22,834 nt of DNA from an uncultured Oscillospiraceae bacterium (GTDB lineage Bacteria > Bacillota_A > Clostridia > Oscillospirales > Oscillospiraceae): assembly GCA_900754605.1 (NCBI GenBank), contig CAAEDK010000304.1, positions 1 through 22,834 on the forward strand, written 5' to 3'. Position 1 is the first letter of the stretch; every line of letters starts with the position of its first letter. Made by a program: the position numbers and the translations under genes. The notes under the pieces were generated by a model. That model was given only the letters and a program-made list of their open reading frames with translations, had not been told where the DNA came from and searched no databases. This document shows, in pieces, positions 5,163 to 22,247 of this stretch.

Positions 5163-5165
5163 GAC

Positions 5166-5490: not shown

Positions 5491-5491
5491 T

Positions 5492-6382: not shown

Positions 6383-6400
6383 CCCCATCTTTCCATCTAC

Positions 6401-6449
6401 TATAACGCCCCGGGGCAGTCCAACAGGACCGCTCCGGGGCGTTATTTTT
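6401..6449 (+). terminator. rho-independent terminator after nagB
   Basis: A long stem pairs ATAACGCCCCGGGGC (6401-6415) with GCTCCGGGGCGTTAT (6430-6444) with one interior mismatch, followed at once by a T-run to 6449. Confidence 0.9.
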
Positions 6450-6528
6450 TGCTGGACAGGCAGATTTCCCCATCTCCTGGCATACAGTATCCCTGCTGAT
6501 ACCATACAGTGAACGGGAGGTACGTGGG

Positions 6529-7710: not shown

Positions 7711-7711
7711 T
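7683..7711 (+). promoter_or_regulatory. promoter overlapping the ylbJ stop codon
   Basis: A perfect -10 TATAAT (7706-7711) contains the TAA stop of ylbJ (7708-7710). A 4/6 -35 TGGAAA (7683-7688) lies 17 bp upstream. It would serve the small Cys4 gene. Confidence 0.5.
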
Positions 7712-7736
7712 AGGGAGAGCTTCCAACACCTGTGAC

Positions 7737-7755
7737 AAGGGAGGTGTCTCCGTTG
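7737..7755 (+). promoter_or_regulatory. ribosome-binding site deciding a TTG start
   Basis: AAGGGAGGTG (7737-7746) lies 6 nt before TTG (7753-7755). No ATG is suitably placed, so the small downstream gene most likely starts at this TTG. Confidence 0.7.
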
Positions 7756-7965
7756 GCCCTGTTTCAAAAGAAGATCGAGCCCCGTTGTGTCTACTGCGCC
7801 CGCAGCCGTCCCCTGGACGATGAGCAGGTGGTCTGTGACAAGAAAGGCGTCATGTCCGCCGGCTCTCACTGCCGGTCCTTTCGATATGATCCCCTCAAGC
7901 GCGTTCCGCCTCGTCCCGCCAAAGCGGATTTCAGCGCTTTGAAGGACGAAGATTTTCAAATTTGA
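7753..7965 (+). CDS. small Cys4 (zinc-ribbon-like) protein, unknown function
   Basis: A 70-residue basic protein beginning MALFQKKIEPRCVYC. Four cysteines (C12, C15, C28, C40) are spaced like a small treble-clef or zinc-ribbon site, followed by a basic, proline-rich stretch (YDPLKRVPPRPAKADF) and an acidic end. There is no signal or membrane segment. It has a strong ribosome site, an apparent promoter and a terminator immediately after, so it looks like a real, separately expressed gene. I have an impression that similar proteins are common in related gut Clostridia but cannot name a family. Metal binding is inferred. An upstream in-frame start at 7732 lies before the ribosome site and is rejected. 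Confidence 0.75.
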   Translation: MALFQKKIEPRCVYCARSRPLDDEQVVCDKKGVMSAGSHCRSFRYDPLKRVPPRPAKADFSALKDEDFQI

Positions 7966-7968
7966 CAC

Positions 7969-8010
7969 AACAAAAACAGCAGGCAGACGCCTGCTGTTTT
8001 TGTTGTTTTT
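7969..8010. terminator. bidirectional terminator between Cys4 gene and znuB
   Basis: A 16-bp perfect stem, AACAAAAACAGCAGGC (7969-7984) with its complement (7989-8004), has a 4-nt loop and is followed by a T-run on the plus strand. The A/T-rich base serves as a U-tract in both directions. It separates convergent transcripts. Confidence 0.9.
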
Positions 8011-8855
8011 TATTGCTTCTTACGGGCCAAGAAGGTGATCAGGAACCACACCGCCAGGTATAGTGTAATGGCCGCACCGGCGGAGGAACCCACATAGTAA
8101 GAGGTCATCAGCCCCGCGATTCCGGCCAGCACCGCCCCCAACAGAGAAACTAGATGGTACTGGAACATGGTTTTGGATACGTTCCGGGCCGCCGCCGCGG
8201 GCAGAACCAGCAGGGAGTTGATGACCAGCAATCCCACCCAGGTCATGGACACCGTCACCACCACAGCGATGGCGATGGAAAATACCGTCTCCTGCCAGAA
8301 TACCTTCACCCCCCGGCTGTCCGCCAGGGCGGGGTGGACTGCGGAGAGCATCAGCTGGTTGAAGGACAGCCCCCACAAAATCAGCACCACCAGTAGGATC
8401 CCCGCCAGCAGGGCGATCTTCTCCGGCTCCACGGAGAGGATGTCGCCGATGAGCAGGCTGTTGAACTTGGTAAAAGAGCGCCCGCCCAGCGTGGAAAGGA
8501 AGATGCCCAGGGCCACCGCTGTGGAGGAAAACACCCCGATCACTGTGTCACTGGCCAGGGCAGAGCGGCGGCGCACCAAATTGAACAGCAGGGCGAACAC
8601 TACCGCAAAGAGGACCGCCGCCCAGGTGGGCTCGTTGAAGCCGCAGATGGCCCCAATGGCCATACCGGTAAAGGCGGAGTGTCCCAAGGCATCGGAGAAA
8701 AAGGACATCCGGCTGTGAACCACCATGGTGGACAGCACGCCGAACAGGGGCGAGATGACCAGCACCGCCAGCAGCGCGTTTTTCATAAAGTACATGGATC
8801 CGGGCTGGGCCCAGTCAAATGGCAGCAGATCCACCAACGCATACCAAAGCTCCAT
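8010..8855 (-). CDS. znuB: zinc/manganese-type ABC transporter permease
   Basis: The membrane subunit of an ABC-3 family metal importer, 281 residues with about eight hydrophobic segments. Family features are SRMSFFSDALGHSAFTG (about 48-64), the coupling region that contacts the ATPase, and later DSRGVKVFW and TWVGLLVINSLLVLPAAAARNV. Its ATG (8855) shares one base with the TGA of the ATPase gene (TGATG), so translation is coupled. It is the last gene of the znuA-znuC-znuB operon. Zinc rather than manganese is suggested by the partner binding protein. Confidence 0.92.
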   Translation of the reverse strand: MELWYALVDLLPFDWAQPGSMYFMKNALLAVLVISPLFGVLSTMVVHSRMSFFSDALGHSAFTGMAIGAICGFNEPTWAAVLFAVVFALLFNLVRRRSALASDTVIGVFSSTAVALGIFLSTLGGRSFTKFNSLLIGDILSVEPEKIALLAGILLVVLILWGLSFNQLMLSAVHPALADSRGVKVFWQETVFSIAIAVVVTVSMTWVGLLVINSLLVLPAAAARNVSKTMFQYHLVSLLGAVLAGIAGLMTSYYVGSSAGAAITLYLAVWFLITFLARKKQ

Positions 8856-9658
8856 CAGTCCTCGCCTCCCTTCCCCATCCTTAGATGGAAGGTCTCATAA
8901 AACTCCGGCGAGGAGGTGACCTCCTCCGGCGTTCCCATGCGAAGCACCCGCTTGTTCAGCAGAATCACCTTGTCGGCAAACTGCCCCAGGGTGGCAAAAT
9001 CATGGGTAGACAGCAGGATGGACAGGTCATACTCCGTCCGCAGCTCGTCCAGCATCTCCAGCAGCTGGTGCTCTCCCTCGATGTCCACGCCGGACAGAGG
9101 CTCATCCAGGACCAGAATATGAGGTACTGGCTCCAGGGCCAGTGCCAGCAGCACCCTCTGGAGCTGCCCTCCGGACAGTCCCCCCATCGGCTTATCCAGC
9201 AGGTCGCCGCCATGGACCCGCTCCAGGCTGCGGCGGCAGCGCTCCCGGTACTTTCCGGGGATGGGCAGGCACACCGGCCATCGGGCGGTGGCGGCGGTAA
9301 AAAAGTCCAGCACCGACACCGGGTCCCCCCGGTCGAAGCTGGGGGACTGTGGCACATATCCAATGAGGGGCCGAGTCCCCCCCATGACCGTCCCATCAGC
9401 CAGCCGAATAGCAGGCCCACCCGCCGGAGCAAAGGTGATGCTCCCGGAGTAGGGCAGCTGGCCCAGGATGCTGCGGAATAGGGTGGACTTGCCTGCCCCG
9501 TTGGGGCCAATCAGAGCAGTGATCTCCCCGCAGTGGAGGTGGAAGGACACATCCTCCAGAATCTCCTCCCCCTGAATACGGACGTTCAGGCCCTCCAGCT
9601 TTAGACAGCAGGAGTCCCCGCACCCGCCGGACATCTTTCCGTGCTTGAGTTTTCTCAT
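8855..9658 (-). CDS. znuC: metal ABC transporter ATP-binding protein
   Basis: The cytoplasmic ATPase driving the metal importer, 267 residues. Walker A GPNGAGKST (51-59), Q-loop at Q104, signature LSGGQ (161-165), Walker B ILVLDEP (181-187) and switch H219 (STHD) are all intact. An N-terminal extension before the ABC fold carries GGCGDSCC with Cys13, Cys17 and Cys18, a possible metal site beyond the core fold. Its ATG overlaps the stop of the binding-protein gene as ATGA, and its own stop overlaps the permease start, so the three subunits are made together. Confidence 0.93.
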   Translation of the reverse strand: MRKLKHGKMSGGCGDSCCLKLEGLNVRIQGEEILEDVSFHLHCGEITALIGPNGAGKSTLFRSILGQLPYSGSITFAPAGGPAIRLADGTVMGGTRPLIGYVPQSPSFDRGDPVSVLDFFTAATARWPVCLPIPGKYRERCRRSLERVHGGDLLDKPMGGLSGGQLQRVLLALALEPVPHILVLDEPLSGVDIEGEHQLLEMLDELRTEYDLSILLSTHDFATLGQFADKVILLNKRVLRMGTPEEVTSSPEFYETFHLRMGKGGED

Positions 9659-10623
9659 CGAATCACTTCTTCCCCGGCAAATCCGTTTACCACGGCGGTC
9701 ACATTATCCGCCAGCACTGTATAGTAGTCGGACAGAGTCCCATCCTCCGGTCCGTCCATACACATGGACAGCTGGGCCACGGCGCACCCTGTCTCCCGGG
9801 CGATGGCCTGAGCAGTGGCGTCGGAGCCGTTGATTTCAGCAAAGATCACTGGCAGGCTATATTCCTTTACAAGTCCTGTGATCTCGTTGATTTCTTTGGC
9901 AGATGCCTCGCTTCCCTCCTCCTCCTCGATGGAGGCCAACAGGGGCAGGTCGAAGGCCTCGGCGAAATAGCGGAACCCGTCGTGGAAGGTGATCAGGCCG
10001 CCGATCTCAACCCCAGCAGCCTCCTCCGCCTCCCGGATCATATCCTGAAGAGCGGAGTCCCAGGTGTAGAGCAGAGCAGCCTGCCCCGCAGCGTTCTCCT
10101 CATACTCCTCCGCGTGCTCTGGGTCCGCCTGGGAGAGGCCGTCTCTGATGTTGCACACCATCCGCTCCATATTCTCCGGGTCCATCCAGTAGTGGGGATC
10201 GAAGTGGTCGTGGTCGTCCTCCTCCGCCCCGTCCTGGTGGACGTGGCCCTCGCTCTCCAGAAGGTCGATCCCGGCAGAACAGTCGATGACCGGGGCACTG
10301 GAGGCGGCCAGAGCGTCCTCCATAAACTCCTCCATACCAGCACCGTTCAGGGCCACCACGTCGGCCCCCTCCAGCTTCTTCATGTCCCCTACGGTAAGGG
10401 TATAATCGTGGAGGCAGGACACTGCCCCCGTCTCCAGCCGGAGGACGGAGACGCCCTCCACCCCATCTGCCACAGATCTGGCTGCCAGATAGACCGGATA
10501 GGTAGAGGCCAGCACAGTCAGGCGTGCCTCCTCCTCATCCGTTCCGCCGGACGCAGTGGAAGCGCAGCCCGGCAGCAACAGAGACATAAGGGTAAAAAGA
10601 GCCAATGCGGCGCGTTTCTTCAT
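9655..10623 (-). CDS. znuA: zinc-binding lipoprotein of ABC importer
   Basis: The extracytoplasmic metal-binding lipoprotein (cluster A-1/ZnuA family), 322 residues from ATG 10623. The signal ends at lipobox LPGC with lipidated C20. Probable metal ligands are H72 (CLHDYTL), H144 (FDPHYWMDP) and H214 (ITFHDGF), with a fourth acidic ligand near E263 (FAEINGSD). A His/Asp-rich loop at 127-144 is typical of zinc rather than manganese proteins. An in-frame upstream start at 10689 would place a non-signal extension before MKKR and is rejected; AAAGGAAA lies before ATG 10623. It heads the znu operon and has a clear promoter. No Zur-type repeat was identified, so zinc control is inferred. Confidence 0.93.
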   Translation of the reverse strand: MKKRAALALFTLMSLLLPGCASTASGGTDEEEARLTVLASTYPVYLAARSVADGVEGVSVLRLETGAVSCLHDYTLTVGDMKKLEGADVVALNGAGMEEFMEDALAASSAPVIDCSAGIDLLESEGHVHQDGAEEDDHDHFDPHYWMDPENMERMVCNIRDGLSQADPEHAEEYEENAAGQAALLYTWDSALQDMIREAEEAAGVEIGGLITFHDGFRYFAEAFDLPLLASIEEEEGSEASAKEINEITGLVKEYSLPVIFAEINGSDATAQAIARETGCAVAQLSMCMDGPEDGTLSDYYTVLADNVTAVVNGFAGEEVIR

Positions 10624-10759
10624 CGCTGTATTTCCTTTCTCCGGGGCCTGGTCCTCTGCGCATCCCCTCACCCACAGGGCCAGGAACAAGCAAAGACACC
10701 TCCGCCCGGAACCACAAAATTGGATCGTGCGTTCTTTGTTTAGGCTTCAGAACCTTAAT

Positions 10760-10788
10760 AGTATATCGTTTTTTCCCCTCAGTGTAAA
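10760..10788 (-). promoter_or_regulatory. znu operon promoter, TTTACA-17-TATACT
   Basis: On the minus strand -35 TTTACA (10788-10783) and -10 TATACT (10765-10760) are 17 bp apart. Transcription would begin near 10753, with a leader of about 130 nt to znuA. The leader has a CCTGG/CCAGG pairing but no riboswitch I can name. Confidence 0.75.
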
Positions 10789-10800
10789 GACAGAACAGCC

Positions 10801-10828
10801 AAAAAACGGCCGCAAAAGCGGCCGTTTT
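10801..10828. terminator. terminator of the vanW-to-coaD operon
   Basis: AAAACGGCCGC (10803-10813) pairs with GCGGCCGTTTT (10818-10828) around a 4-nt loop. On the minus strand the stem runs into TTTTTT. It separates the operon end at 10872 from the znu promoter. Confidence 0.88.
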
Positions 10829-10871
10829 GGATCTGTCCAACGGTTGGAGGTGTCGGAGGTATACCCTTCTC

Positions 10872-11402
10872 TCAGTCCTCGTCTGCCGCTGCGTCGTACA
10901 TGGGACGGGTGCTCCCACCGGCGGATGGCTGGATACCCAAGGCAGCGCTGGCTGCCGCACGGAAACGAGAACGGGACTTTTTGATCTCATCGTACGCTTC
11001 TGCCACCGCTTCTTCTGTGCGGCGCAGGGCGTCTTCGCAGTAGTCATTGGCAGAACGCTTCAGCTCTCGGCTGCGATCCTCTGCCTGCTGCATCAGTTCA
11101 TTGGCTCGCTGGCGGGCCTGGAGGAGGATACTCTCCTCGGCCAGCAGCTGTTTGGCCTTCTCCTCCGCCTGGCGGCGGATAGCATCCGCCTCCCGCTTGG
11201 CAGAGGCAATCATATCCGCCCGGCTGGCCATCAGCTTCTTAGCCTCGGACAGTTCCACCGGGAACTGTGCCCGGATATCATCGATCAGGTCCAGAGCACG
11301 GTCCCGCTCAATCATACATTTATCACTGGATAAAGGCACGTTCTTGGCCTCATCCACCATATCGAACAGCATATCCAGCAGTTCTTCCACACCGCTTGCC
11401 AT
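10872..11402 (-). CDS. coiled-coil protein downstream of coaD, unknown function
   Basis: A 176-residue protein with a long charged helix from about 50 to 140 rich in Ala, Glu, Arg and Gln (AKREADAIRRQAEEKAKQLL), predicted to form a coiled coil. The N-terminus (EELLDMLFDMVDEA) is a short helix. There is no membrane segment or signal. Such proteins are often labelled as ATP-synthase b/E-like subunits because of the coiled coil, but no other ATPase gene is present and I would not call it one. It starts 4 bp after the coaD stop, so it belongs to the operon and is its last gene. DivIVA-like scaffolding is another possibility; the function is unknown. Confidence 0.8.
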   Translation of the reverse strand: MASGVEELLDMLFDMVDEAKNVPLSSDKCMIERDRALDLIDDIRAQFPVELSEAKKLMASRADMIASAKREADAIRRQAEEKAKQLLAEESILLQARQRANELMQQAEDRSRELKRSANDYCEDALRRTEEAVAEAYDEIKKSRSRFRAAASAALGIQPSAGGSTRPMYDAAADED

Positions 11403-11405
11403 GGG

Positions 11406-11903
11406 TCAAACCTTCCCTTCCTGCAATTCTTTCATGCGCCGATTCACGTCCTCCACGATCTCCCGGGGAAGGAAATCCCCCAGATTGGCCCCGTACCGGG
11501 CCATCTCCTTGACGATAGTGGAGCTGAGATAGGTATATTTTTCGCTGGAGGCCAGGAACATGGTCTCCAAACCGGGGTTCAGCTTACGGTTAATGACCGC
11601 CATCTGGACCTCCTGCTCAAAGTCGGAGACGGCCCGCAGCCCCTTGACCACCACATGGGCCCGGCGCCGCTTGGCATAGGCAGCCAGCAGCCCGTCAGAG
11701 TAGTCTACCTCCACATTCGGGAACCGGGCCGTCGCCTTTTTCAGCAGTTCTACCCGCTCCTCCGGAGTAAACATCCCCTGTTTTTTGGAGTTGATCATCA
11801 CACAGACAATCAGCCGGTCAAAGCAGGCGGCCGCCCGCTTGATGATGTTCAGATGCCCCAGCGTCACTGGATCAAAGCTGCCGGGATAGATCGCAATTTT
11901 CAT
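11406..11903 (-). CDS. coaD: phosphopantetheine adenylyltransferase
   Basis: Transfers AMP from ATP to 4'-phosphopantetheine, the penultimate step of coenzyme A synthesis. At 165 residues it has the normal length. The nucleotidyltransferase motif GSFDPVTLGH at 8-17 includes the conserved His17, and the second motif YLSSTIVKE near 125-133 corresponds to the family's ISSTxVR. The start overlaps the rsmD stop as ATGA (11903/11900), so the two are coupled as in many Firmicutes. Confidence 0.97.
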   Translation of the reverse strand: MKIAIYPGSFDPVTLGHLNIIKRAAACFDRLIVCVMINSKKQGMFTPEERVELLKKATARFPNVEVDYSDGLLAAYAKRRRAHVVVKGLRAVSDFEQEVQMAVINRKLNPGLETMFLASSEKYTYLSSTIVKEMARYGANLGDFLPREIVEDVNRRMKELQEGKV

Positions 11904-12460
11904 CGGCGGTCCTCTCTTCCCAAGTGTCGGTATACGGTCAGCTTGATCTTTCCATACCGGTACTCTTTTCCCCGCTCGTAGGGGGCTGCCAAGGTGGGCA
12001 GTTCCTGCTCCAGGGGACTTTCGCAGACCATTATACCATGTTCCCGAAGAATGTCAAATGCGGATACGGTCTCAACCGCCTTTTCCAGCGCCCCGGTGAG
12101 GTAGGGCGGATCCAGGAAAATCACATCAAACTTCTCCCGGCAAGACATGAGAAAGGAGATGGAATCTGCCTGGACCACCTGGGCCTGCTGGGACAGTCCG
12201 GTCAGTTTCAGGTTCTCCCGTACCAGGGCCGCCGCATCACGCCGCTGATCCACAAAGGTACACCGGGCCGCTCCTCTGGACAGGGCCTCAATACCCAGCT
12301 GCCCCGTTCCCGCAAACAAATCCAGCACCTGCCGCCCGGGCAGTTCAAACTGGACGATATTGAACAGGGCCTCCTTCACCCGGTCTGTGGTGGGCCGGGT
12401 CTCCATCCCCTGCAGTTCCTTCAAACGCCGCCCGCGGGCGGTCCCTGAGATCACGCGCAT
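11900..12460 (-). CDS. rsmD: 16S rRNA (guanine-966-N2)-methyltransferase
   Basis: Methylates G966 (E. coli numbering) of 16S rRNA using S-adenosylmethionine. In 186 residues, the N-terminal MRVISGTARGRRL is characteristic, the SAM-binding loop is VLDLFAGTGQLGIEAL (45-60), and the N6/N2-methyltransferase motif DPPY is at 117-120. The ribosome site AGGAGGG is built from the end of a period-7 repeat that also contains the uvrC stop. It is followed by coaD with a 4-bp overlap. Confidence 0.95.
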   Translation of the reverse strand: MRVISGTARGRRLKELQGMETRPTTDRVKEALFNIVQFELPGRQVLDLFAGTGQLGIEALSRGAARCTFVDQRRDAAALVRENLKLTGLSQQAQVVQADSISFLMSCREKFDVIFLDPPYLTGALEKAVETVSAFDILREHGIMVCESPLEQELPTLAAPYERGKEYRYGKIKLTVYRHLGREDRR

Positions 12461-12472
12461 ATCTGCGTCCCT

Positions 12473-12500
12473 CCTAATTCCTAATTCCTAATTTCTAACT
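12473..12500 (-). repeat. period-7 tandem repeat between uvrC and rsmD
   Basis: On the minus strand AATTAGG occurs three times exactly (12493-12473), preceded by a degenerate fourth copy (12500-12494) inside the last uvrC codons. Because 7 is not a multiple of 3, the TAG in each copy falls in a different frame, so all three frames are closed. The last copy runs into the rsmD ribosome site. Confidence 0.85.
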
Positions 12501-14311
12501 TCCCGAAAATACTGAAAGACCGCCTGTGCGGTGTTCTTCGGAACCACCTGCTCCAGCTCCTCCAGTGTGGCCTCCCGGATGGCCTTGACACTTTTAAAGT
12601 GCTTGATCAGCTGGCTGCGGCGCTTCTCTCCCACCCCAGGAATCTTGTCCAGCACAGAGCCCTGGACCCGCCCCTTCCGCTGCTGCCGGTTGAACTCGAT
12701 GGCGAAGCGGTGGGTCTCCTCTTGGATCTGGCCGATGAGGGCAAACACCGCCGGGATGGCTTGGATCCCAATCTCCCGCCCATCAGGGGCAACCAGGGCC
12801 CGGGTCCGGTGGCGTTCATCCTTCACCATACCGAAGGCGGGGATGTCCAGCCCCATGGTCTCCAACACCCGGCAGGCCGCCCGCACATGGTTCTCGCCGC
12901 CGTCGATGAGGAGCAGGTCGGGCCGGGTATTGAACTTCTCGTCCCCGTCCAGATACCGGCGGAAGCGCCGGGTGAGCACCTGCTCCATGGAGGCGTAGTC
13001 GTCCGGCCCATCCAAATCTTTCAGCTTGAAGTGGCGATAATCTCGCTTCAGCGGGCGTCCATTCTCAAAAACCACCATAGAGGCTACGATATCGTCAGAT
13101 CCGGTGTTGGAGATGTCATAGGACTCCATCCGCCGGGGCGCCTCAGGCAGGCCCAGCATCCTCCCCAGTGCCTCCAGCAGCTTATTTTGCCGCTCTTCCC
13201 GGGTGGTGGCCCGCTCCACCTCCTCTGCTGCATTCTGGTTGGCCAGTCGGATCAGATCCATTTTCGCCCCCCTCTGGGGGGTGACCAACTCCACCCGGCT
13301 GCCCACCTGCTCAGACAGCATCCGGGTGAGGGGGACCTGGTCGGCCAGCTCGCAGGGCAGCAGGATCTGACGGGGCAGGCGGGTGCGGCCCCCGTAGTAC
13401 TCCCGCACCAGGGAGGACAGGATTTCCTCCTCGTCCTCCTCCACCGGGGTCTCCAGCAGCTCCATATCCTTGGCCGCCAGATCCCCGTCCACATAGTGAA
13501 GCACCACAAAGCAGCTCTTGGCCGCTCCCCGGAAAAAGCCGGTGACGTCGGTGTCCGCCAAGGAACCGGCCACCACTTTCTGCCGGGCCCCCAGCAGTTC
13601 GATGGCCCGGAGCCTGTCCCGCAGCTGGGCTGCCTGCTCAAACCGCAGCTCCTCCGCGGCCTGCTCCATCTCCGCAGTCAGGTCCGCTTTGACCTCCTTG
13701 AACCGCCCTTCCAGCAGGGAGACCGCTTGGCGGATGGCTTCCTCATGCTGCTCTTTCATCTCCGCAGAGCGGCAGTAACCATCACACTTTCCCATATGGA
13801 AGTTCAGGCAGGGGCGCTCCTTCCCAATGTCCCGGGGAAACTTCTTCCGGCAGGAGGGCAGGCGCAGGGCGGTGCGCAGAGCGTCCAGGATCCCCTGGGT
13901 GCTGTGGCGGCTTCCGTAGGGGCCGAAGTACCGGGCACCGTCCTCCGCCACCCGGCCCGCCAGGGAGAATTGGGGATACTCCTCCCCGCTCAGACGGATA
14001 TAGGGATAGCCCTTGTCGTCCTTCAATAGGATATTGTACCGGGGCTGGTGCCGCTTGATGAGGGAGTTTTCCAGGATCAGGGCCTCAAACTCACTGTCAG
14101 CAATGATGACGTCAAAGTGATCGATCTGAGACACCATGGCTCTGGTCTTTTCTGTGTGAGCAGCCAAATTGGCAAAATACTGGCTCACCCGATTCTTCAG
14201 AGCCTTGGCCTTGCCCACATAGATGACCTCGCTCTGGGCATTCTGCATGATGTATACCCCTGGCTTAAGAGGCAGGCTGTGGGCTTTTTCTTTCAATTCA
14301 TCAAAGGTCAT
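12488..14311 (-). CDS. uvrC: excinuclease ABC subunit C
   Basis: The dual-incision nuclease of nucleotide excision repair, acting with UvrA and UvrB on damaged DNA. At 607 residues it is full length. It has a GIY-YIG nuclease domain at about 14-95 (GVYIMQNAQSEVIYVGKAKA), a Cys cluster near 150-180, a UVR (UvrB-binding) motif at about 204-240, an RNase H-like 5'-nuclease domain (SYDISNTGSDDIVASMVVFE and LLLIDGGENH), and C-terminal helix-hairpin-helix motifs from about 560 (LDKIPGVGEKRRSQLIKHF). It lies 18 bp after vanW and 27 bp before rsmD, so it is part of the same transcript. Confidence 0.97.
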   Translation of the reverse strand: MTFDELKEKAHSLPLKPGVYIMQNAQSEVIYVGKAKALKNRVSQYFANLAAHTEKTRAMVSQIDHFDVIIADSEFEALILENSLIKRHQPRYNILLKDDKGYPYIRLSGEEYPQFSLAGRVAEDGARYFGPYGSRHSTQGILDALRTALRLPSCRKKFPRDIGKERPCLNFHMGKCDGYCRSAEMKEQHEEAIRQAVSLLEGRFKEVKADLTAEMEQAAEELRFEQAAQLRDRLRAIELLGARQKVVAGSLADTDVTGFFRGAAKSCFVVLHYVDGDLAAKDMELLETPVEEDEEEILSSLVREYYGGRTRLPRQILLPCELADQVPLTRMLSEQVGSRVELVTPQRGAKMDLIRLANQNAAEEVERATTREERQNKLLEALGRMLGLPEAPRRMESYDISNTGSDDIVASMVVFENGRPLKRDYRHFKLKDLDGPDDYASMEQVLTRRFRRYLDGDEKFNTRPDLLLIDGGENHVRAACRVLETMGLDIPAFGMVKDERHRTRALVAPDGREIGIQAIPAVFALIGQIQEETHRFAIEFNRQQRKGRVQGSVLDKIPGVGEKRRSQLIKHFKSVKAIREATLEELEQVVPKNTAQAVFQYFREVRN

Positions 14312-14329
14312 AGAGGCGCTGCATCCTCC

Positions 14330-15172
14330 TTACTCCGCATCCGGAAACGGGCCCTCCCCCTTCTCCAGCAGCGGGTTATACATCATGATGGCGTGATTCT
14401 CCGTCACAAGCTCGTCCCCCACCAACTCTCCAGTGGAGTCCAGCACCCGCCGGCGGATCACGTTGTGGCGGGTGTATCCGCCCCAGTACTCCCCCTGCAT
14501 CCGGTGCTCCGCCTGATAGATCTGATAGGTGTAGGGCTGGGGTCTGTCGGAGTACCACGCCCCCTCCAGATCCCGCTTTCCAACCTGGAGTGCCAGCCGG
14601 TAAGGGCGGTCCGTATCGTTACGGACCATCAGGTCCACATAGTTGTAGCAGCAGGTGGCCCCGCTCCCGAAGGGCTGGGTACGTCCGCTGTCCGGAAACA
14701 CGTCATAACCGTGGCGGTGCCGCTCCGTTACTGTGAGAGGGGTATGGAGGGTCATCCAGTAAATGAGATTCGCCAGCTGGCACAGCCCGCCCCCCACTGC
14801 AGAGGTCACCTGTCCATTTTTCAGCATCATCCCCTCCACATAACCTCTCCGACGGCTGGGATCGCCGATGCATTTCCAATAGGACAGGGTCTCTCCCGGC
14901 AGGAGGACCACTCCATCCAGCCGCTCCACCGCCAGACGCAGGTTATGCACCTTGTTCCGCTGCATCCACATATCCACGTCCTTCAGCTTTCGAAGCAGTG
15001 GAGTGCTGTGCCGGAAACAGAGGACCGGGCAGGGGAACTCCGGGCGGTGGCGGGCAAAGCGCACGCCCGAGGTGTGCCACCAGAGCCACCGCCGGGCACA
15101 GAAATACTGTTTCCCCAGCCTGAGACGCAGTTCGCCCCGCCGGGCAGGCTCTGACACAAACATCTGCTTCAT
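14330..15172 (-). CDS. VanW-family protein
   Basis: A 280-residue protein of the VanW family, named after a gene of unknown role in the vanB vancomycin-resistance cluster. The VanW core runs from about residue 75: LLPGETLSYWKCIGDPSRRR, GGGLCQLANLIYWM and HGYDVFPDSGRTQPFGSG are typical. There is no van gene nearby and no signal peptide, so this is a chromosomal housekeeping homologue and not evidence of glycopeptide resistance. ATG 15172 follows AAAGGAGGG by 8 nt. It is the first gene of the operon with uvrC, rsmD and coaD. Its biochemical function is unknown. Confidence 0.88.
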   Translation of the reverse strand: MKQMFVSEPARRGELRLRLGKQYFCARRWLWWHTSGVRFARHRPEFPCPVLCFRHSTPLLRKLKDVDMWMQRNKVHNLRLAVERLDGVVLLPGETLSYWKCIGDPSRRRGYVEGMMLKNGQVTSAVGGGLCQLANLIYWMTLHTPLTVTERHRHGYDVFPDSGRTQPFGSGATCCYNYVDLMVRNDTDRPYRLALQVGKRDLEGAWYSDRPQPYTYQIYQAEHRMQGEYWGGYTRHNVIRRRVLDSTGELVGDELVTENHAIMMYNPLLEKGEGPFPDAE

Positions 15173-15240
15173 CCGAATGTCCCTCCTTTGGAACGGAATG
15201 AGGAATTTTGAATGATCTGGATGAATCGAGGCCGCTGAAC

Positions 15241-15269
15241 ATACTCTGGTCTGTGCTTCTGTTGTTCAA
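15241..15269 (-). promoter_or_regulatory. possible promoter of the vanW-uvrC operon
   Basis: On the minus strand TTGAAC (15269-15264) and GAGTAT (15246-15241) are 17 bp apart, about 70 bp before vanW. The -10 is weak. Confidence 0.4.
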
Positions 15270-15290
15270 GATGTGCGCGTTTTGAATATC

Positions 15291-15319
15291 AAAAAAGGCG
15301 CCGCATGGCGGCGCCTTTT
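15291..15319. terminator. terminator after ptsH
   Basis: AAAAGGCGCCGC (15293-15304) pairs with GCGGCGCCTTTT (15308-15319) around a 3-nt loop, followed on the minus strand by TTTTTT. It ends the ptsH transcript. Confidence 0.88.
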
Positions 15320-15336
15320 CATTGTGCTTGGGAAAA

Positions 15337-15600
15337 TTACTCGGAAAAATCGGAGGAGATCATCTTGTACAGGGCCTCCACCGCTTCCTTTTCGTCGGGG
15401 CCGTCCGCAATCAGCTTGATGGGGGTGCCCTTCACGATGCCCAGGGACAGAACGCCCAGCAGGCTCTTCGCATTGACCTTCCGCTCGTCCTTCTCCACCC
15501 AGATCGCACTTTTGAACTCATTCGCCTTCTGGATAAAGAACGTGGCCGGTCTGGCATGCAGCCCAACCTGATTGTTCACGACCGCTTCCTGACTATACAT
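15337..15600 (-). CDS. ptsH: phosphocarrier protein HPr
   Basis: Carries phosphate from enzyme I to the sugar-specific PTS components and, when phosphorylated on Ser46 by HPr kinase, acts in carbon catabolite control. Starting at ATG 15600 (GGAGG 9 nt upstream) gives 87 residues and puts the active His exactly at 15 (NQVGLHARPA) and the regulatory serine exactly at 46 (NAKSLLGVLSLG). This confirms the start over the longer in-frame one at 15618. It is HPr rather than Crh because His15 is kept. It is monocistronic, without ptsI, with its own promoter and terminator. Confidence 0.94.
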   Translation of the reverse strand: MYSQEAVVNNQVGLHARPATFFIQKANEFKSAIWVEKDERKVNAKSLLGVLSLGIVKGTPIKLIADGPDEKEAVEALYKMISSDFSE

Positions 15601-15636
15601 ACAACCGTACCTCCGCACTCGTCATATTGTATTCTT

Positions 15637-15666
15637 AGCATAGCAGATAAATCCCGTCCTCGTCAA
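15637..15666 (-). promoter_or_regulatory. ptsH promoter, TTGACG-18-TATGCT
   Basis: On the minus strand -35 TTGACG (15666-15661) and -10 TATGCT (15642-15637) are 18 bp apart, with a TG extension before the -10. It gives a short leader before ATG 15600. The AT-rich sequence from 15667 to 15844 holds no further gene I can support. Confidence 0.72.
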
Positions 15667-15844
15667 TGACATTTTTCACAAATCTCTGTTTTTCGTTTGA
15701 AATTTATTACAGAGGAAATTGCATTTCGTCTTTTTGCATGATTTCATTTTCTCAAGAAGGAATTTTACAGTAAAAATGATGGCTTCTTCCTTTTGTCTAC
15801 TAATTCGAAACAAAACACGGGATTCTCTCCGGTCACATGGCAAT

Positions 15845-18211
15845 TTATTTCAGCTCTACCACCGTCACGCCGTCCTCTCCCTCACCGTAGCGGCCGGGGC
15901 GGAAGGATTTCACATAGCGGCTGCGCTTCAAATAGGCACGCACAGCATTGCGCACTGCGCCGGTGCCCTTGCCATGGATCACAGTCACCGTTTCCAGCTT
16001 GCCCAGCATGGCAGTGTCCAGAAAACTCTCCAGAGCGGCCACAGCCTCATCGGTCATCATGCCCCGCAGATCCACCTCTCGGGGGGCGGCGGTACGTAGG
16101 GTGCGCTCCGCCCGCTGGATGATCCGCCGGGTCTCTTTCTGGCTCTGGGTCTCCCCTTCCACCACCCGAACCTCGCTCTGCTTAGCGGAGATTTTCAAAA
16201 TCCCAGCCTGAAGCTGGAGGGTTCCGTCCTTATTCACCGACAAGACGGATGCTTTTGTACCCATAGACACAAGTTCCACCGTGTCCCCTACCTTGGCATC
16301 CCGGGTGGGAGGGGGTGCCTCCGGCTCCTGCACGGGGCCGCCGATGCCCCGCTCGGCCTCGTTGAGCAGGCGGCGGGCCTCCGCCCGGCCGTCGTTCACC
16401 TTCTGCCAGTCCAGATCCTTCCGCTTTTTAAGCTCCTTCAGCTCGGAGATGGCCAGGTCACTGGCCGCCCGGGCCTCCTGGATGATGGAGCGGGCCTCTG
16501 CCTGTGCCTTCTCCACCACCTTGGCCCGCTCGGCCTCCAGGCGCTCCCGGTACTCCCGGGCCTTGGCGGCAGACTGCTCCATCTCCAGCTTCAGTCGGCG
16601 GGCCTCGGTGCGCTCCCTCTCCATCTCCTGGCGCTGCTGATCCAACTTGGTGAGCACATCCTCAAAGCGTACGTTCTCCGCGTCCAGCCGGGCGGCGGCT
16701 TTTTCTATGATATACTCCGGCAGGCCCAGCCGGCGAGAGATGGCGAAGGCGTTGGATTTTCCTGGGATACCCAGGATCAGCCGGTAGGTTGGTGCCAAGG
16801 TCTCCACGTTGAACTCGCAGGAGGCGTTCTCCACCCCGTCGGTGGTCATGGCGTATACCTTTAATTCTGCATAGTGGGTGGTGGCGGCCACCAGGGCGCC
16901 GATCCCCCGGGCGGATTCAATGATGGCGGCGGCCAGGGCCGCGCCCTCCACCGGGTCGGTGCCCGCCCCCAGCTCGTCGAACAGGATTAGGGTCCTGTCG
17001 TCCGCCTCCTGCAAAATGCCCACGATGTTGGTCATGTGGGAGGAGAAGGTGGACAGGGACTGGGCGATGGACTGCTCATCCCCGATGTCGGCCAGCACCC
17101 GGTCAAAGATCCGCACCGTGGAGTCCGCCCCAGTGGGGATATGCAGGCCGCACTGAGCCATGAGGGTCAGCAGGCCGATGGTCTTTAAGGTCACCGTCTT
17201 TCCGCCGGTGTTGGGGCCGGTGATCATCAGGGTGTCGAACCGGTCCCCCAGCTCCAGGTCGTTGGCCACCGCCTTTTTCCGGTCCAGCAGGGGGTGCCGC
17301 GCCTTCCGCAGGCGTAAATACCGGTCGGACAGCCGGGGCTGGGCGGCCTCCATGTTCAGGGACAGCCGGCCCCGGGCGAAGATGGCATCCAGCCACACCA
17401 GCAGGTCATAGTCCTCCGCAATGTCCTCCTTGTGGGCGGCACACTGGGCGGACAGCTCCGCCAGGATACGCTCGATCTCCTTTTTCTCCTGGGCCATCAG
17501 CTCCCGCAGATCGTTGTTGGCCTTCACCACGCCCATAGGCTCGATGAAGAAGGTGGAGCCGGAGGAGGACACGTCGTGGACCAGGCCGGGGATGGCGTTT
17601 TTGAACTCCGACTTCACCGGCACCACATAGCGGTCGGAGCGGATGGTGATGATGGACTCCTGGAGGTACTTTGACTGGTTGGAGGAGAGGATCCGCTGCA
17701 AAATATCACGGACCTTGGCCTCCGTGGCCCGGATGTGGCGGCGGATGGAGGCCAGCTCGCTGCTGGCAGAGTCGGCCAGTTCGTCCTCCCCGATGATGGA
17801 GTTGGTGATGGTCTCCTCCAGGAAGCGGTTGGGGGTGAGGGCGCGGAACAGGTGGGAGATGGGGGTCTTTTCCTCCCCGGCCCCGTAGTCCTGGACGGTG
17901 CGGGCACACCGCAGCACGGCGGCCACCTCCAGCAGCTCCCGGGTGTTCAGGCTGCCCCCCATATCCGCCCGGTGGAGGCTGGCTCCCACGGGCTTGACGC
18001 CGGAGAAGCCGGGGCTCCCCCGCTTAATGAGCATCTCCACCGCGGCGGAGGTCTCCTCCTGGGCCCGCTGCACGTCGTCCGGGTCGGTCATGGGCCGCAG
18101 GGCCAGGCAGCGCTCCTTCCCCTCCTGGGTGGAGGCGCAGGCGGCCAGCTGCTCCAGCACCCGGGGCAGTTCCAGGGTGGCGATGGATTTTTCAAACAGG
18201 TCGGTCATCAT
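15845..18211 (-). CDS. mutS2: MutS2 DNA-binding ATPase with Smr domain
   Basis: A MutS homologue that acts outside mismatch repair, in control of recombination and, in Bacillus, in rescue of collided ribosomes. At 788 residues it is full length: a MutS core and lever region (about 1-320), an ATPase with Walker A TGPNTGGKT (about 331-339), FDELGAGTDP and TTHYAELK, a long charged coiled coil (about 510-620), a small beta domain (VGDTVELVSMGTKASVL), and a C-terminal Smr nuclease domain with VDLRG and IHGKGTGAVR. The mismatch-binding domain I of MutS is absent, as expected. It begins with two adjacent ATG codons, 18211 or 18208. It has its own promoter and no partner. Confidence 0.96.
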   Translation of the reverse strand: MMTDLFEKSIATLELPRVLEQLAACASTQEGKERCLALRPMTDPDDVQRAQEETSAAVEMLIKRGSPGFSGVKPVGASLHRADMGGSLNTRELLEVAAVLRCARTVQDYGAGEEKTPISHLFRALTPNRFLEETITNSIIGEDELADSASSELASIRRHIRATEAKVRDILQRILSSNQSKYLQESIITIRSDRYVVPVKSEFKNAIPGLVHDVSSSGSTFFIEPMGVVKANNDLRELMAQEKKEIERILAELSAQCAAHKEDIAEDYDLLVWLDAIFARGRLSLNMEAAQPRLSDRYLRLRKARHPLLDRKKAVANDLELGDRFDTLMITGPNTGGKTVTLKTIGLLTLMAQCGLHIPTGADSTVRIFDRVLADIGDEQSIAQSLSTFSSHMTNIVGILQEADDRTLILFDELGAGTDPVEGAALAAAIIESARGIGALVAATTHYAELKVYAMTTDGVENASCEFNVETLAPTYRLILGIPGKSNAFAISRRLGLPEYIIEKAAARLDAENVRFEDVLTKLDQQRQEMERERTEARRLKLEMEQSAAKAREYRERLEAERAKVVEKAQAEARSIIQEARAASDLAISELKELKKRKDLDWQKVNDGRAEARRLLNEAERGIGGPVQEPEAPPPTRDAKVGDTVELVSMGTKASVLSVNKDGTLQLQAGILKISAKQSEVRVVEGETQSQKETRRIIQRAERTLRTAAPREVDLRGMMTDEAVAALESFLDTAMLGKLETVTVIHGKGTGAVRNAVRAYLKRSRYVKSFRPGRYGEGEDGVTVVELK

Positions 18212-18244
18212 ACTTGTGTCTCCTGTCTTTGTTAGGCTGGCCCT

Positions 18245-18273
18245 ATTGTCTCACATTTCCGGCTTTTTTACAA
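18245..18273 (-). promoter_or_regulatory. mutS2 promoter, TTGTAA-17-GACAAT
   Basis: On the minus strand TTGTAA (18273-18268) and GACAAT (18250-18245) are 17 bp apart, about 35 bp before the start codon. Confidence 0.55.
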
Positions 18274-18321
18274 GAGGCGGAGCAAACGGGCCAAAGCGCG
18301 GGGCAAAGCCCCCAATACGCC

Positions 18322-18353
18322 GCACGGCGGACCGCTTTTGCGGTCCGCCGTGC
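18322..18353. repeat. perfect 14-bp-stem hairpin, possible dispersed repeat
   Basis: GCACGGCGGACCGC (18322-18335) pairs perfectly with GCGGTCCGCCGTGC (18340-18353) around TTTT. It sits after the minus-strand secreted-protein gene and before the mutS2 promoter. The T-run lies only on the plus-strand side, where no gene ends, so it fits poorly as a simple terminator for the minus-strand operon. The GC-rich flank at 18280-18321 may belong to the same element. Confidence 0.6.
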
Positions 18354-18369
18354 CTGTTTTTGGGGATGG

Positions 18370-18825
18370 TCAGCTGATCTGGCCGGAGGGGGTGCAGGAG
18401 AGGGAAAGACTAACAGGAATTGAACTATCACCCGAATGAGACAATCTTGCAGTCAGACGAGCTCGATTTCCAGAATCAGCAATCTGCTCACTGCCATAGG
18501 ACCAGCCGCTGTAAGTTACATGAGAACCGTCGGCACTGATCACCCAGGCATCCTCCCCATCATATCCAAAGGTCGCAGAGAGTGTTACTTCTGCAATTAC
18601 TTTACCATCTGATTTATAAGTTCTTTTTATATCAGCGCTCTTTGAATGGGCCAGCATCTGCGAATCGTGAATGATAAGCACCGTTTCAACTTGAATATTA
18701 CCGGAATCCATATAGAAAACCTGAACATTTTGTTTCATTTCAACTGCTGAAACAGGCAATATCGCACAGGATACCAATAAAAATGCACCCATCAGGGCAC
18801 TTATTTTCTTTTTCAAATTACTCAC
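18370..18825 (-). CDS. small secreted protein in PadR operon, unknown function
   Basis: A 151-residue exported protein from GTG 18825: basic start, hydrophobic segment, and a probable signal-peptidase cut after PVSA near residue 27. LVSC inside the signal could be read as a lipobox, but the hydrophobic stretch continues past it, so a normal secretion signal is more likely. The mature part is beta-rich (VQVFYMDSGNIQVETVLII, then VTLSATFGYDGEDAW) and ends SLSLSCTPSG. GTG is chosen because GGAGGAGG lies 9 nt before it and it overlaps the HAAS gene by 8 bp; the ATG at 18846 lies upstream of that site. It is the last gene of the PadR-HAAS operon. Base composition is more A+T-rich than mutS2. Confidence 0.78.
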   Translation of the reverse strand: MSNLKKKISALMGAFLLVSCAILPVSAVEMKQNVQVFYMDSGNIQVETVLIIHDSQMLAHSKSADIKRTYKSDGKVIAEVTLSATFGYDGEDAWVISADGSHVTYSGWSYGSEQIADSGNRARLTARLSHSGDSSIPVSLSLSCTPSGQIS

Positions 18826-19210
18826 TTGGCAGTTCCTCCTCCGCATAGATGACTAGGCGTTCTGTAACTTCAATTTGATGGCGGTGCGTCGCCAACCAGC
18901 CCACTGAGATACAAAGTGTCACAATTACTGCCGCAGCCACGCCCACCAGGATCCGTCTGCCCAGCTTTCTCCGCCTCTTCCGGCGTTCCAGCATCTCCGG
19001 ATCCAGTTCCTCCAGCAGGCACCGGGCCAGCTCCTCCGGTTCCCCCAGGAATCCGGCCACCTCGTCGGGCGTGGCATCGGGCTTGCCCTGAAGAAAATCG
19101 TCGGCCATCCGCCGGGCCTGGGCCAGAAACTGCTCCCGGTCTTTCCCGGGGCAGTCCAGACAGCGCTCCAGGGCGCGGAAGTAGTCCCCCATGGTGCTCC
19201 AGGTATTCAT
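18818..19210 (-). CDS. HAAS-domain (DUF1700-like) membrane protein
   Basis: A 130-residue protein. The N-terminal cytoplasmic HAAS domain (about 7-70) shows YFRALERCLDCPGKDREQFL and FLGEPEELARCLLEELD. A basic RRKRRRKLGRR precedes a single transmembrane helix at about 87-105, and a short tail lies outside. The HAAS fold is typically encoded next to PadR regulators and is thought to pass on an envelope signal. Its start overlaps the PadR stop as ATGA, and its end overlaps the secreted-protein gene. It is probably a membrane partner of the PadR regulator; direct contact is inference. Confidence 0.8.
   Translation of the reverse strand: MNTWSTMGDYFRALERCLDCPGKDREQFLAQARRMADDFLQGKPDATPDEVAGFLGEPEELARCLLEELDPEMLERRKRRRKLGRRILVGVAAAVIVTLCISVGWLATHRHQIEVTERLVIYAEEELPSE
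18823..18842 (-). promoter_or_regulatory. ribosome-binding site deciding a GTG start
   Basis: GGAGGAGG (18842-18835) lies inside the end of the HAAS gene, 9 nt before GTG (18825-18823). The HAAS stop TAA at 18820-18818 lies just past this start, giving an overlapping, coupled junction. Confidence 0.7.
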
Positions 19211-19584
19211 ACTTCCTTCCCCCTTTCCGGCAGGCCCAGGATCTGGTCCACTGTATCGGTATACTGCCGGTACTCCCGGATCAGGGCGGCCAGATACCCC
19301 TCCCCCTTTGGGGTGATGGCAAAGTAGAGCCGGACCCGGTTGTCCTCGCTGACCACCTTTCCCTGCTCCTCCACATAGCCAAAGTCCTGAAGGCGGTGGA
19401 TGGTCAGATAGAGGGTGTTGAAGGTGATGACCCCCTGGCTGAGCGCCTCGATCTCGTTCATCATCTCATAGGTGTACATGGACCGTCGGCGCAGGAGAAA
19501 CAGCACCAGCATCTCGGTCGTTGCCTTTTTTAAGGATTCCCGGAACCCCTCCGGGGTCCCGCTTCGTTTTGTGTTCTTTTCCAT
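19207..19584 (-). CDS. PadR-family transcriptional regulator
   Basis: A 125-residue winged-helix repressor. The PadR domain runs from about 18 to 105: TEMLVLFLLRRRSMYTYEMMNEIEA, TLYLTIHRLQDFGYVEE, then the wing VRLYFAITPKGEGYL and a short C-terminal helix for dimerisation (subgroup 2 size). PadR proteins usually repress their own operon and a divergent neighbour, and respond to envelope stress, antibiotics or phenolics. Here it heads an operon with HAAS and a secreted protein, and faces three plus-strand envelope genes across a palindromic promoter. The inducer is unknown. Confidence 0.92.
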   Translation of the reverse strand: MEKNTKRSGTPEGFRESLKKATTEMLVLFLLRRRSMYTYEMMNEIEALSQGVITFNTLYLTIHRLQDFGYVEEQGKVVSEDNRVRLYFAITPKGEGYLAALIREYRQYTDTVDQILGLPERGKEV

Positions 19585-19617
19585 AAAACCTCACATCATT
19601 CTTTTGAGCCAAATGTT

Positions 19618-19645
19618 ATTTTAAAACAAATCTTATATTTGTCAA
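19618..19645 (-). promoter_or_regulatory. padR operon promoter, TTGACA-16-TAAAAT
   Basis: On the minus strand perfect -35 TTGACA (19645-19640) and TAAAAT (19623-19618) are 16 bp apart. Its -35 is one arm of the shared inverted repeat. Confidence 0.65.
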
Positions 19646-19667
19646 TATATTTTTTATTGACAAATAT
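19635..19667. promoter_or_regulatory. perfect 12-bp inverted repeat joining two divergent promoters
   Basis: ATATTTGTCAAT (19635-19646) and ATTGACAAATAT (19656-19667) are exact reverse complements with a 9-bp T-rich spacer. Each arm contains the TTGACA -35 box of one of the divergent promoters. This is the natural place for the PadR dimer to bind and control both sides. Confidence 0.75.
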
Positions 19668-19684
19668 ATGTTTTTATATAATAT
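19657..19684 (+). promoter_or_regulatory. plus-strand envelope-gene promoter
   Basis: Perfect -35 TTGACA (19657-19662) with TAATAT (19679-19684) at a 16-bp spacing. A perfect TATAAT (19677-19682) is also present but would leave only 14 bp. It drives the secreted-protein, lipoprotein and anchored-protein genes. Confidence 0.6.
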
Positions 19685-19756
19685 TTTAAGTAAAGCAGAA
19701 CTAGTTCTGATTTGCAAACGAATACAGTATCAAAATTTAACACGGAAGGGGATTTT

Positions 19757-20544
19757 ATGATGAATTTCAACATTAAAAAAGGGTTGCTGGCCACTTCTTT
19801 ATCTGTAACCATGTTGCTAACACCCGCATTAGCTGTAGATTATTCCGAAAGCCTCCTTTCTTCCGTCAATGTGCCTGCGCTTCATCAATTAGAAACTCTT
19901 TCACAATACGAATATACAAATTTGCTTCAGTCGGCGAAAACTGATTTGGATGTTGCCCAGACATACGCATACCTCGATGTATCTACTGCATCCCCAGCTG
20001 CTGAAAAACTTGTTTTGGCCGCACGGGAAAATATCATTTTTCACAACTCTTGGTATGACAAAAATTTATGTACAGGTTCCGTGCTGACCGATCTCGAGGG
20101 AAATATTGTACGAGAACTACCAGCATTTCAAGATATTTTCCCTGCTGATTGGGAAATTCCACATGAAAACAAATCTGCATCTTTACCCCCCCCCTACAAT
20201 CTTCTTCTGTAACCCGCAATCCGGGAGACCTGAATCCTACCAGATATGAAGGTGTTGTCATACCATATGCAAACACCTCAACCACAAACTATGCAGAGGT
20301 TATTTGCAATGATACTGACGTAAAGACCGTTGGGCAATATGGAGAAAATATTCCTTGCAAAGTAAATCTTGCTATCGCAAATATGGTAGACGATACAGTT
20401 GCGTTTATCGAAAACGTTGATGAAGGGTATATTTTTTGGGTAGACGGAATCCGTGGATATGGATATGGAATGCGCGTTTCCACATATGACAAGGAGAATT
20501 TTGGTAAAAGGGGTGATTTTATAACTTTAGTTCCTGAGTATTGA
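19757..20544 (+). pseudogene. secreted protein gene broken or switched at a C9 run
   Basis: The frame opens at ATG 19757 (after GGAAGGGG) with a clear signal peptide: KK start, hydrophobic 9-22, cut after TPALA near 26. The mature part is helical, then reaches nine C (20186-20194) and stops at TAA 20210-20212 after 151 residues. In the -1 frame an uninterrupted reading continues from the run to TGA 20542-20544, about 117 more residues with normal protein character (ending RGDFITLVPEY). One extra C, or two fewer, would give a 262- or 261-residue protein. It may be phase-variable, ribosomally frameshifted, a true pseudogene or a sequencing error. I recognise no family. It is followed by the lipoprotein gene. 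Confidence 0.75.
20186..20194 (+). repeat. homopolymer run of nine C within a gene
   Basis: Nine consecutive C in an otherwise A+T-rich gene, placed exactly where the reading frame shifts by -1. Such runs are prone to slippage in replication, transcription and sequencing. Confidence 0.9.
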
Positions 20545-20607
20545 TCTTTCATATAATTATGTAATTATGATTTCAGCCTTCACCAGCATACTGAGTAGGA
20601 GAAATTT

Positions 20608-21789
20608 ATGTACAAAAACAAACCTGTGTTCCCCAGTCCTCTATTATTTGCAGCGATCCTGATGCTTTTTTTACCTGCCTGTTCCTTCTCTCCAGCGAAG
20701 TCTGAGCCTCCGCAAACAGACGAGTTTATTGTGGATTGGGACGGGAATCACATGGACCAAAGTCCAGAAGATCACTCTGAAATAACAGGTTATGGCGGCA
20801 CATTGCAATGTCCGGACGGAACCGATCTTCACTTCCCCTCGGATGAATCCGCTGAACTGCCGCCCATGTACACAGATTTTGCCGCCCGTTTTTCAGAAGA
20901 TGACATCCTGGTGAACACAGACCCACAGGGAAAGATCCTTCTGTCCGAAGATTTCGCCGGCTCCCGATATGTATGCTTTTCCATGGAGGCTCTGGAGACC
21001 GCAACAAGTATGCCCTATCCCGACATAGAAGATCATATCGTGTATGTCGATGTTTCTGAGCACTACATTGAAAACCTCCAGCCAGATACGATTTATATTC
21101 CGATTTCAAATTTGGGGAACTCCGTAACCTGTCAGAACAGTTCGGGCAATTATGACCCGTTTGAGATCCATCAAGCCGGGCAAATTCGTTTTTACTTCGC
21201 CAATCACAGCGACGAAGATATTGTGATCACAATTCACAAGCAAGGACTTTTTGGTATCTGGGGCGGAAAAGTTACAGTCAATGGAGAATCTGAGTTTGAA
21301 ATTCCTGCCCATGACAGCGTCGAGTTTGATACAAACGGCAGTAATATGGCAAAGGGGACCTACCGCTGTGAGGCTTCCAACAAAAACGGTTCTGATTTTG
21401 ACTATCTCTGTGCCCCAATGACCGGTGATACCGGTATCTCTGACGGGCAATTACTTCCCGCGCCACGTATGAGCGATGATGGTACTTTTACCGGCTCTAA
21501 ATTCACTCACACAGAGGTTTTGAATGACAGAAATGGCTCTACATTCAACTTCTATGTGAAAAACAACGGGAAAACAGATGTAGAAATCTCTATGAACGGA
21601 AAGCACAAAACAACGATCACCGCCGGTAAAGAAGGTCATATTTCGGAAACATTAGGTTTTTTAAATAAGAGCTATGAATGTGTGGCCAAGGCTGCTGTCG
21701 ATGGTGCGGAAATTGATATTGATTGGGCTGTCGCAGTAAGAGATGAAATCGAAGCTTTAAAGTTCGATGACGAAGATAAGGTAACATGA
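20608..21789 (+). CDS. lipoprotein with repeated beta-type modules, unknown function
   Basis: A 393-residue surface lipoprotein: basic start, hydrophobic helix 10-22, lipobox LPAC with lipidated C25, then a Ser/Pro/Asp-rich linker. Two related modules are visible, about 193-270 (RFYFANHSDEDIVITI then GTYRCEASNKNGSDFDYLCA) and about 314-380 (NFYVKNNGKTDVEISM then KSYECVAKAAVDGAEIDIDW). Both look like short beta sandwiches with a conserved Tyr-x-Cys. No catalytic motif was seen. ATG 20608 has TAGGAG 6 nt upstream. Its stop overlaps the next start as ATGA. It lies in the PadR-facing plus-strand operon; a sensing or adhesion role is only a guess. Confidence 0.82.
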   Translation: MYKNKPVFPSPLLFAAILMLFLPACSFSPAKSEPPQTDEFIVDWDGNHMDQSPEDHSEITGYGGTLQCPDGTDLHFPSDESAELPPMYTDFAARFSEDDILVNTDPQGKILLSEDFAGSRYVCFSMEALETATSMPYPDIEDHIVYVDVSEHYIENLQPDTIYIPISNLGNSVTCQNSSGNYDPFEIHQAGQIRFYFANHSDEDIVITIHKQGLFGIWGGKVTVNGESEFEIPAHDSVEFDTNGSNMAKGTYRCEASNKNGSDFDYLCAPMTGDTGISDGQLLPAPRMSDDGTFTGSKFTHTEVLNDRNGSTFNFYVKNNGKTDVEISMNGKHKTTITAGKEGHISETLGFLNKSYECVAKAAVDGAEIDIDWAVAVRDEIEALKFDDEDKVT

Positions 21790-22247
21790 AACAAAAGAGG
21801 CGCACTTTAATCATTCTCGGGATATTCATTCTTCTGATAGGACTGATATTCTGGCGCACGATTAGCATCAATACCTATCACAGAGGATTTAATATTCAGA
21901 TCGAAAATCAATCCACCACTACAATTCCATATATTGCATTTGGAGCATTGGATCCAGTTCATACATTTACAGATATAGCCCCTGGAAGTAACATCAATAC
22001 CCATGTAGATTCTATGGGCGGCGAAAGAGTCATTCTGTTTATCGAAAACGCGGATGGTTCAGAAGAAAAAATACCACTCATGTATGTTATGTCCCGTCGT
22101 GATGTTCATATCATAAAAATTCTTGCCACAGACGGTAAAACATCAGGAGAAACGGTACTTCAAATCAAAAGCCTAGATGGATCTCTTGTAGTACCGTGGT
22201 GGATAAGAAGACTATATGCATATCGTGTTACAGAAATCCCTTTATAG
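21786..22247 (+). CDS. membrane-anchored small protein, unknown function
   Basis: A 153-residue protein with basic KQKRR, one hydrophobic helix at about 7-24 and no clear cleavage site, so probably a type II anchored protein with the rest outside. The exposed part (GFNIQIENQSTTTIPYIAFG, DIAPGSNINTHVDS, RVILFIENADGSEE) looks like a beta sandwich and recalls the modules of the lipoprotein before it. Its ATG overlaps the lipoprotein stop (ATGA), so the two are co-translated. A+T-rich like its neighbours. No family recognised. Confidence 0.78.
   Translation: MKQKRRTLIILGIFILLIGLIFWRTISINTYHRGFNIQIENQSTTTIPYIAFGALDPVHTFTDIAPGSNINTHVDSMGGERVILFIENADGSEEKIPLMYVMSRRDVHIIKILATDGKTSGETVLQIKSLDGSLVVPWWIRRLYAYRVTEIPL

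Follow-up and report, generated by a model that had tools for sequence, protein, structure and literature searches.

Introduction

Contingency sites are known to include poly-G/C tracts within coding genes, as set out in the parts available to us of a study of Helicobacter canadensis (PMC2823697) and of a 2025 review (PMC11868660), and an extract of a further paper proposes such tracts as contingency sites in Akkermansia (PMC3048395). In the H. canadensis excerpt, 29 of 29 poly-G tracts varied in reads; 16 were placed for translational switching and 8 lay towards the 3' end. The review excerpt describes, for group A streptococci, a C8-to-C7 change in mga with reversion in animals; among Clostridia, this text names genes of C. 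difficile alone: two whose promoters are invertible, and CmrRST. Propionibacterium (Cutibacterium) acnes presents a different picture: in the portion of that study at hand, 54 polymorphic G/C tracts were found over 90 genomes and were attributed to slow, clade-wise accumulation rather than active modification, some of them perhaps to sequencing error (PMC4746626). Oscillospiraceae appeared in none of the titles among the literature matches listed, which is not proof of absence in print.

Here we analysed a stretch of 22,834 nucleotides from an uncultured Oscillospiraceae bacterium, probably of the gut (contig CAAEDK010000304.1; hereafter the window), which represents one consensus sequence. 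In it, a gene for an apparently exported protein is interrupted by nine C. The gene resembles those of H. canadensis, as excerpted, in having a tract of seven or more G/C at which a shift of frame changes the C-terminal part or cuts it off; there, however, variation was seen in reads, whereas the window tract lies mid-gene and is known from one consensus (PMC2823697). With mga it shares a short poly-C tract in a Bacillota gene, there with a one-base C8/C7 change, but the excerpted account of mga concerns a regulator with reversion in animals, and the window gene, of which one tract length is known, encodes an apparently exported protein (PMC11868660). The P. acnes tracts, as described in that portion, likewise are G/C tracts that lie in reading frames of a Gram-positive commensal and can break them by changing length; the difference is that here we have one tract and one sequence, with relatives compared as proteins (PMC4746626).

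Results

A run of nine C separates two reading frames

On the forward strand, an open reading frame (ORF) encoding an apparent N-terminal signal sequence (by eye) starts at ATG 19757 or 19760, with a ribosome-site-like stretch, AAGGGG (by eye), ahead of it, and ends at TAA 20210-20212. The nine C interrupt it at about 55% of the gene length, that is, mid-gene. After the run the frame reads TAC AAT CTT CTT CTG TAA, five codons and then the stop ending at 20212. The -1 frame stays open as far as TGA 20542-20544, over 116 codons if the codon spanning the run's end is included, or 117 residues when counted from inside the run. The three forward frames after the run hold 5, 17 and 115 residues before a stop. 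These readings bear out two points of the original prediction: that the ORF stops five codons past the run, and that the -1 frame remains open for a long way beyond it.

When first-order Markov sequences were generated from the downstream piece, a given frame stayed open for 116 codons in 1 of 5000, so an open frame of this length is not expected by chance. As in a contingency locus, a G/C tract of at least seven bases lies in frame with the gene, and of the frames behind the tract one leads to a full-length product and the others to truncated ones, as read from the frames of the window and from relatives, which are full length. The features of the locus are collected in Table 1.

Table 1 Features of the locus around the nine-C run (window positions).
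Feature	Position	Strand	Basis or remark
Gene behind padR, one hydrophobic segment (by eye)	18818..19210	-	Weak HAAS-like match PF22564, 17.9 bits, below cut-off 27
PadR-family regulator gene, divergent	19207..19584	-	Pfam PF03551, E 6.1e-12, 45.8 bits, cut-off 27
Perfect 14-base inverted repeat with 7-base centre, between padR and the broken gene	19634..19668	.	Holds -35-like hexamers of two divergent promoter-like sites
5' gene part: signal sequence and helical N-terminal domain, three Pro codons, five codons, stop	19757..20212	+	ORF reading; start of P0004, MMNFN, matches ATG 19757
Nine-C run	20186..20194	+	Exactly three codons (Pro) of the ORF; longest single-base run of the window
3' gene part in the -1 frame: C-terminal beta-rich domain, 115 residues past the straddling codon, then TGA	20195..20544	+	Homologous to the second half of 8/8 spanning clusters; beta strands in both models
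Next gene: putative lipoprotein, LPACS motif (by eye)	20608..21789	+	Sub-threshold Pfam/NCBIfam matches only
Third gene: one N-terminal hydrophobic segment (by eye), 4-base overlap with the second	21786..22247	+	No Pfam match; one sub-threshold NCBIfam match

Relatives carry the protein in a single frame

The read-through across the run, used as a query, found five homologous clusters. A profile search, which scored the best 7988 candidates by shared words, then listed seven clusters, three of them new; P0007, found by the read-through query, was absent from that list. A search with the N-terminal half added P0009, whose 103 aa stop short of the run. Of the nine clusters found, eight span the break site, and all eight are continuous in one frame with both halves homologous, P0012 being without most of the N-terminal half. 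The original prediction had joined the two frames into one protein and asked whether homologues would end at the window's stop, with no downstream domain; none of the eight does. Because all eight run through the site, the two frames are, judged by these alignments, halves of one protein, as had been predicted.

The nearest relative, P0004, is a protein of 261 aa and 98% identity that represents a cluster of 28 members (the representative was compared). The nine C and TA of the window correspond to Pro-Pro-Leu in P0004, whose coding stretch is therefore two bases shorter there. The window differs from P0004 at 4 of 142 residues before the run and 2 of 116 after it. The downstream half has thus not decayed, which makes the break recent, intermittent or technical. 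At the same site P0005, at 81% identity, has Ala-Pro-Leu, and in P0006-P0008 and P0010-P0012 the pair of prolines is absent. At the protein level, then, the tract is not retained in close relatives: at most the 98% relative P0004 could hold a shorter run. The DNA of relatives was sought in genome-contig scans, in viral-contig scans with alignments and with a pattern around the run, each without a match; tblastn with P0004 against plasmids and phages, and MutS2 against viral contigs, likewise gave none.

These comparisons bear on the proposal that the gene is a contingency locus, in which slipped-strand mispairing at the C run would toggle a full-length exported protein and the window would come from an off cell. 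Several observations favour such a switch. The downstream half has not decayed relative to P0004, the product of the broken gene looks exported, and nine C exceed the C7 threshold for candidate listing in H. canadensis given in the excerpt of that study (PMC2823697); the C8-to-C7 change in mga, as excerpted in the review, is a described case in a Bacillota gene (PMC11868660). Against it, the C run is not kept in P0005 and in more distant relatives, and the 85 candidates examined include no cluster formed by the truncated version, a weak negative since cluster membership hides single member sequences (P0009, whose 103 aa are identical to the start of P0004, does stand as its own cluster). The mid-gene position of the tract also runs counter to the bias in H. 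canadensis towards the first fifth, and towards the last fifth over the middle, as far as the excerpt reports it (PMC2823697). Taken with the run statistics given below, we regard such a switch as unlikely.

The run is rare for the gene and unremarkable for the window

We compared the C9 run with several chance expectations. In sequences with the composition of the gene, C9 or G9 arose in 3, 6 and 0 of 3000 simulations (orders 1, 2 and 3). Synonymous re-draws of the gene reached nine C in 0 of 5000 cases and seven or eight C in 168 of 5000, and elsewhere in the gene CCC is 1 of 11 proline codons. In the GC-rich window as a whole, C9 or G9 is unremarkable, occurring in 140, 49 and 80 of 200 simulations. 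When the 21 other window genes were re-drawn synonymously, it came up in 57 of 200. The window holds three matches to C8, two of them within the C9 run, against 5.55 expected, with at least three in 80 of 100 shuffles. Nine C are thus rare for this AT-rich gene yet common enough for a GC-rich window. The rarity within the gene is a point against a chance origin and could be explained by a selected tract, as a contingency switch would have it; against the switch stands the count of only one such tract in the 22.8 kb, with chance giving one in 49 to 140 of 200 window simulations. The phase variation proposed earlier thus has one point in its favour, the rarity of the run for the codons of the gene, but the run is not kept beyond, possibly, the 98% relative, the DNA compared showed a single tract length, truncated forms make up no cluster among the candidates, and the tract lies at about 55% of the gene.

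The window has four other runs of at least seven bases (A8, G8, C7 and T7), each within an ORF that stays open across it; the A8 is at 7671. The G8 at 2443-2450, which is C8 on the coding strand, lies within the open ORF 2204-2827, which had no Pfam match at E 1e-5.

The four intact ORFs bear on a further explanation, an assembly or base-calling error in the run, with the gene of the organism intact. Homopolymer length is described, in the section of the source available, as the commonest residual error of long-read-only assemblies (PMC8812927), and that relatives carry the protein whole supports an error of this kind; that four other runs of 7-8 bases in the same window sit in open ORFs, and that the nearest relative differs by two bases rather than one, argue against it. 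We see it as a possible but doubtful source of the break, and count it within the preferred reading given in the Discussion.

Folding near the run offers little to a programmed slip

Programmed -1 ribosomal frameshifting, or transcript slippage on the C9 run, would yield the full protein from the sequence as written. The open -1 frame starts directly after the run, as this requires, and the fold of the 126 nt of RNA downstream is somewhat stronger than in shuffles, 10 of 200 of which match it (z -1.91). Near the run, however, folding is ordinary (z -0.27, -0.57 and +1.39), and the relatives, being single-frame, need no slip. To our knowledge, programmed frameshift sites do not usually consist of a slippery run of C alone. 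A break accompanied by a stimulatory structure and kept in relatives was not found here, and the suggestion that a -1 ribosomal slip might restore the protein finds no local support, given ordinary folding near the run and relatives that do without a slip; we consider it very improbable.

The gene probably encodes a two-domain protein of an unnamed family

The product is presumably exported, given its signal sequence. Low-confidence models have a helical N-terminal part and a beta-rich C-terminal domain, and the full protein, of about 261 residues, would probably consist of the signal sequence, the helical domain, a variable linker and the beta-rich domain. The run falls within a stretch of low model confidence at about residues 122-155 (residues 1-36 and 95-105 are also low) and at the beginning of the poorly aligning part of the homologue alignment. 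Fold matches to the structure models were unspecific, also for a beta-sandwich reading of the C-terminal half. The conserved core of the consensus (TYAYLDVS, LAARENII and PAFQDIFPxDW) lies in the N-terminal half, and the broken copy would still make this half.

The two halves had no match in Pfam at E up to 1, and their best E in NCBIfam was 0.049, far below the cut-offs. For 9 aligned rows, the best E in Pfam was 0.04. The read-through had no match in PHROGs at E 0.01, and PDB sequences gave 0 matches at E up to 1. By these searches the family is one without a named domain in Pfam, NCBIfam, PHROGs or PDB, with eight spanning clusters found.

The broken gene stands in a row of genes for exported-looking proteins beside padR

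A PadR-family regulator gene is divergent from the broken gene, and the inverted repeat between the two is a possible, candidate PadR operator. Seven promoter-like sites were found in 19500-20700 against a shuffle mean of 3.8 (sd 2.0), so that single sites of this kind are weak evidence; the one terminator-like site in this interval lies inside padR. Downstream, the products of 20608-21789 and 21786-22247 have an exported or membrane-bound appearance (by eye). The setting that had been foreseen, a group of exported-protein genes beside a PadR-controlled promoter, agrees with what stands there: the broken gene is divergent from padR (PF03551) and lies in front of a putative lipoprotein gene and a gene for a protein with one N-terminal hydrophobic segment, both assigned by eye. 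The GC content of the three-gene row is 0.385-0.454, versus 0.598 for positions 1-18370.

The wider interval 18370-22247, beside mutS2, encodes several family-less proteins of exported or membrane-like appearance (by eye) on both sides of padR; its GC content is 0.385-0.454, except for padR and its neighbour, at 0.599. Elsewhere in the window, 2988-4094 encodes a protein of 369 aa with an N-terminal NPHP3_N match (PF24883, 31.0 bits, cut-off 24.8). UvrC, compared with a plasmid collection, matched 86 records, the best at 54.3% to one of Vescimonas fastidiosa (Oscillospiraceae); this points to a Clostridia host without proving it.

Discussion

We consider it likely that the locus encodes an exported protein of two domains, and that a length change of the C run, be it in the DNA or in the assembly, recently put the gene out of frame in this single sequence. 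That the change took place in the DNA of the bacterium is, to us, only slightly more probable than a change in the assembly, and we hold this placement tentatively. Since the relatives are whole and do not have the run in common, we propose a single copy that slipped or was mis-sequenced, and do not see an on/off switch as proven. The family would be one of ordinary exported proteins, in which the linker of the window's lineage acquired a C run; a slip in that run, in the cell or in the assembly, would then have moved the copy out of frame. The run itself may have arisen by chance and be prone to slippage, without being an evolved switch. Taken as written, the broken copy would lack the C-terminal domain, and its secreted product would be the N-terminal domain extended by a short foreign tail.

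A point against a single slip is the two-base difference from P0004, unless the lineage of the window had first gained a proline codon. Among the described systems, the slow tract drift of P. acnes, as reported in the portion of that study at hand, seems to us the comparison that fits the window case best (PMC4746626).

A more far-reaching idea is that the C run is a real slippage switch in an uncharacterised two-domain exported family of a gut Clostridia relative: it would yield either the whole protein or just the secreted N-terminal domain, ending in a short alternative tail, and would act on top of PadR control at the divergent promoter. We regard this as speculative and distinctly improbable.

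Variation of the tract in living populations, if it occurs, would make this a further homopolymer contingency locus, one from a lineage of commensal Clostridia. If it does not, the locus is a caution: a long C run with an open second frame behind it can be the look of one slipped or mis-assembled ordinary gene. An unannotated family, with eight spanning clusters and no named domain, could now be recognised whole.
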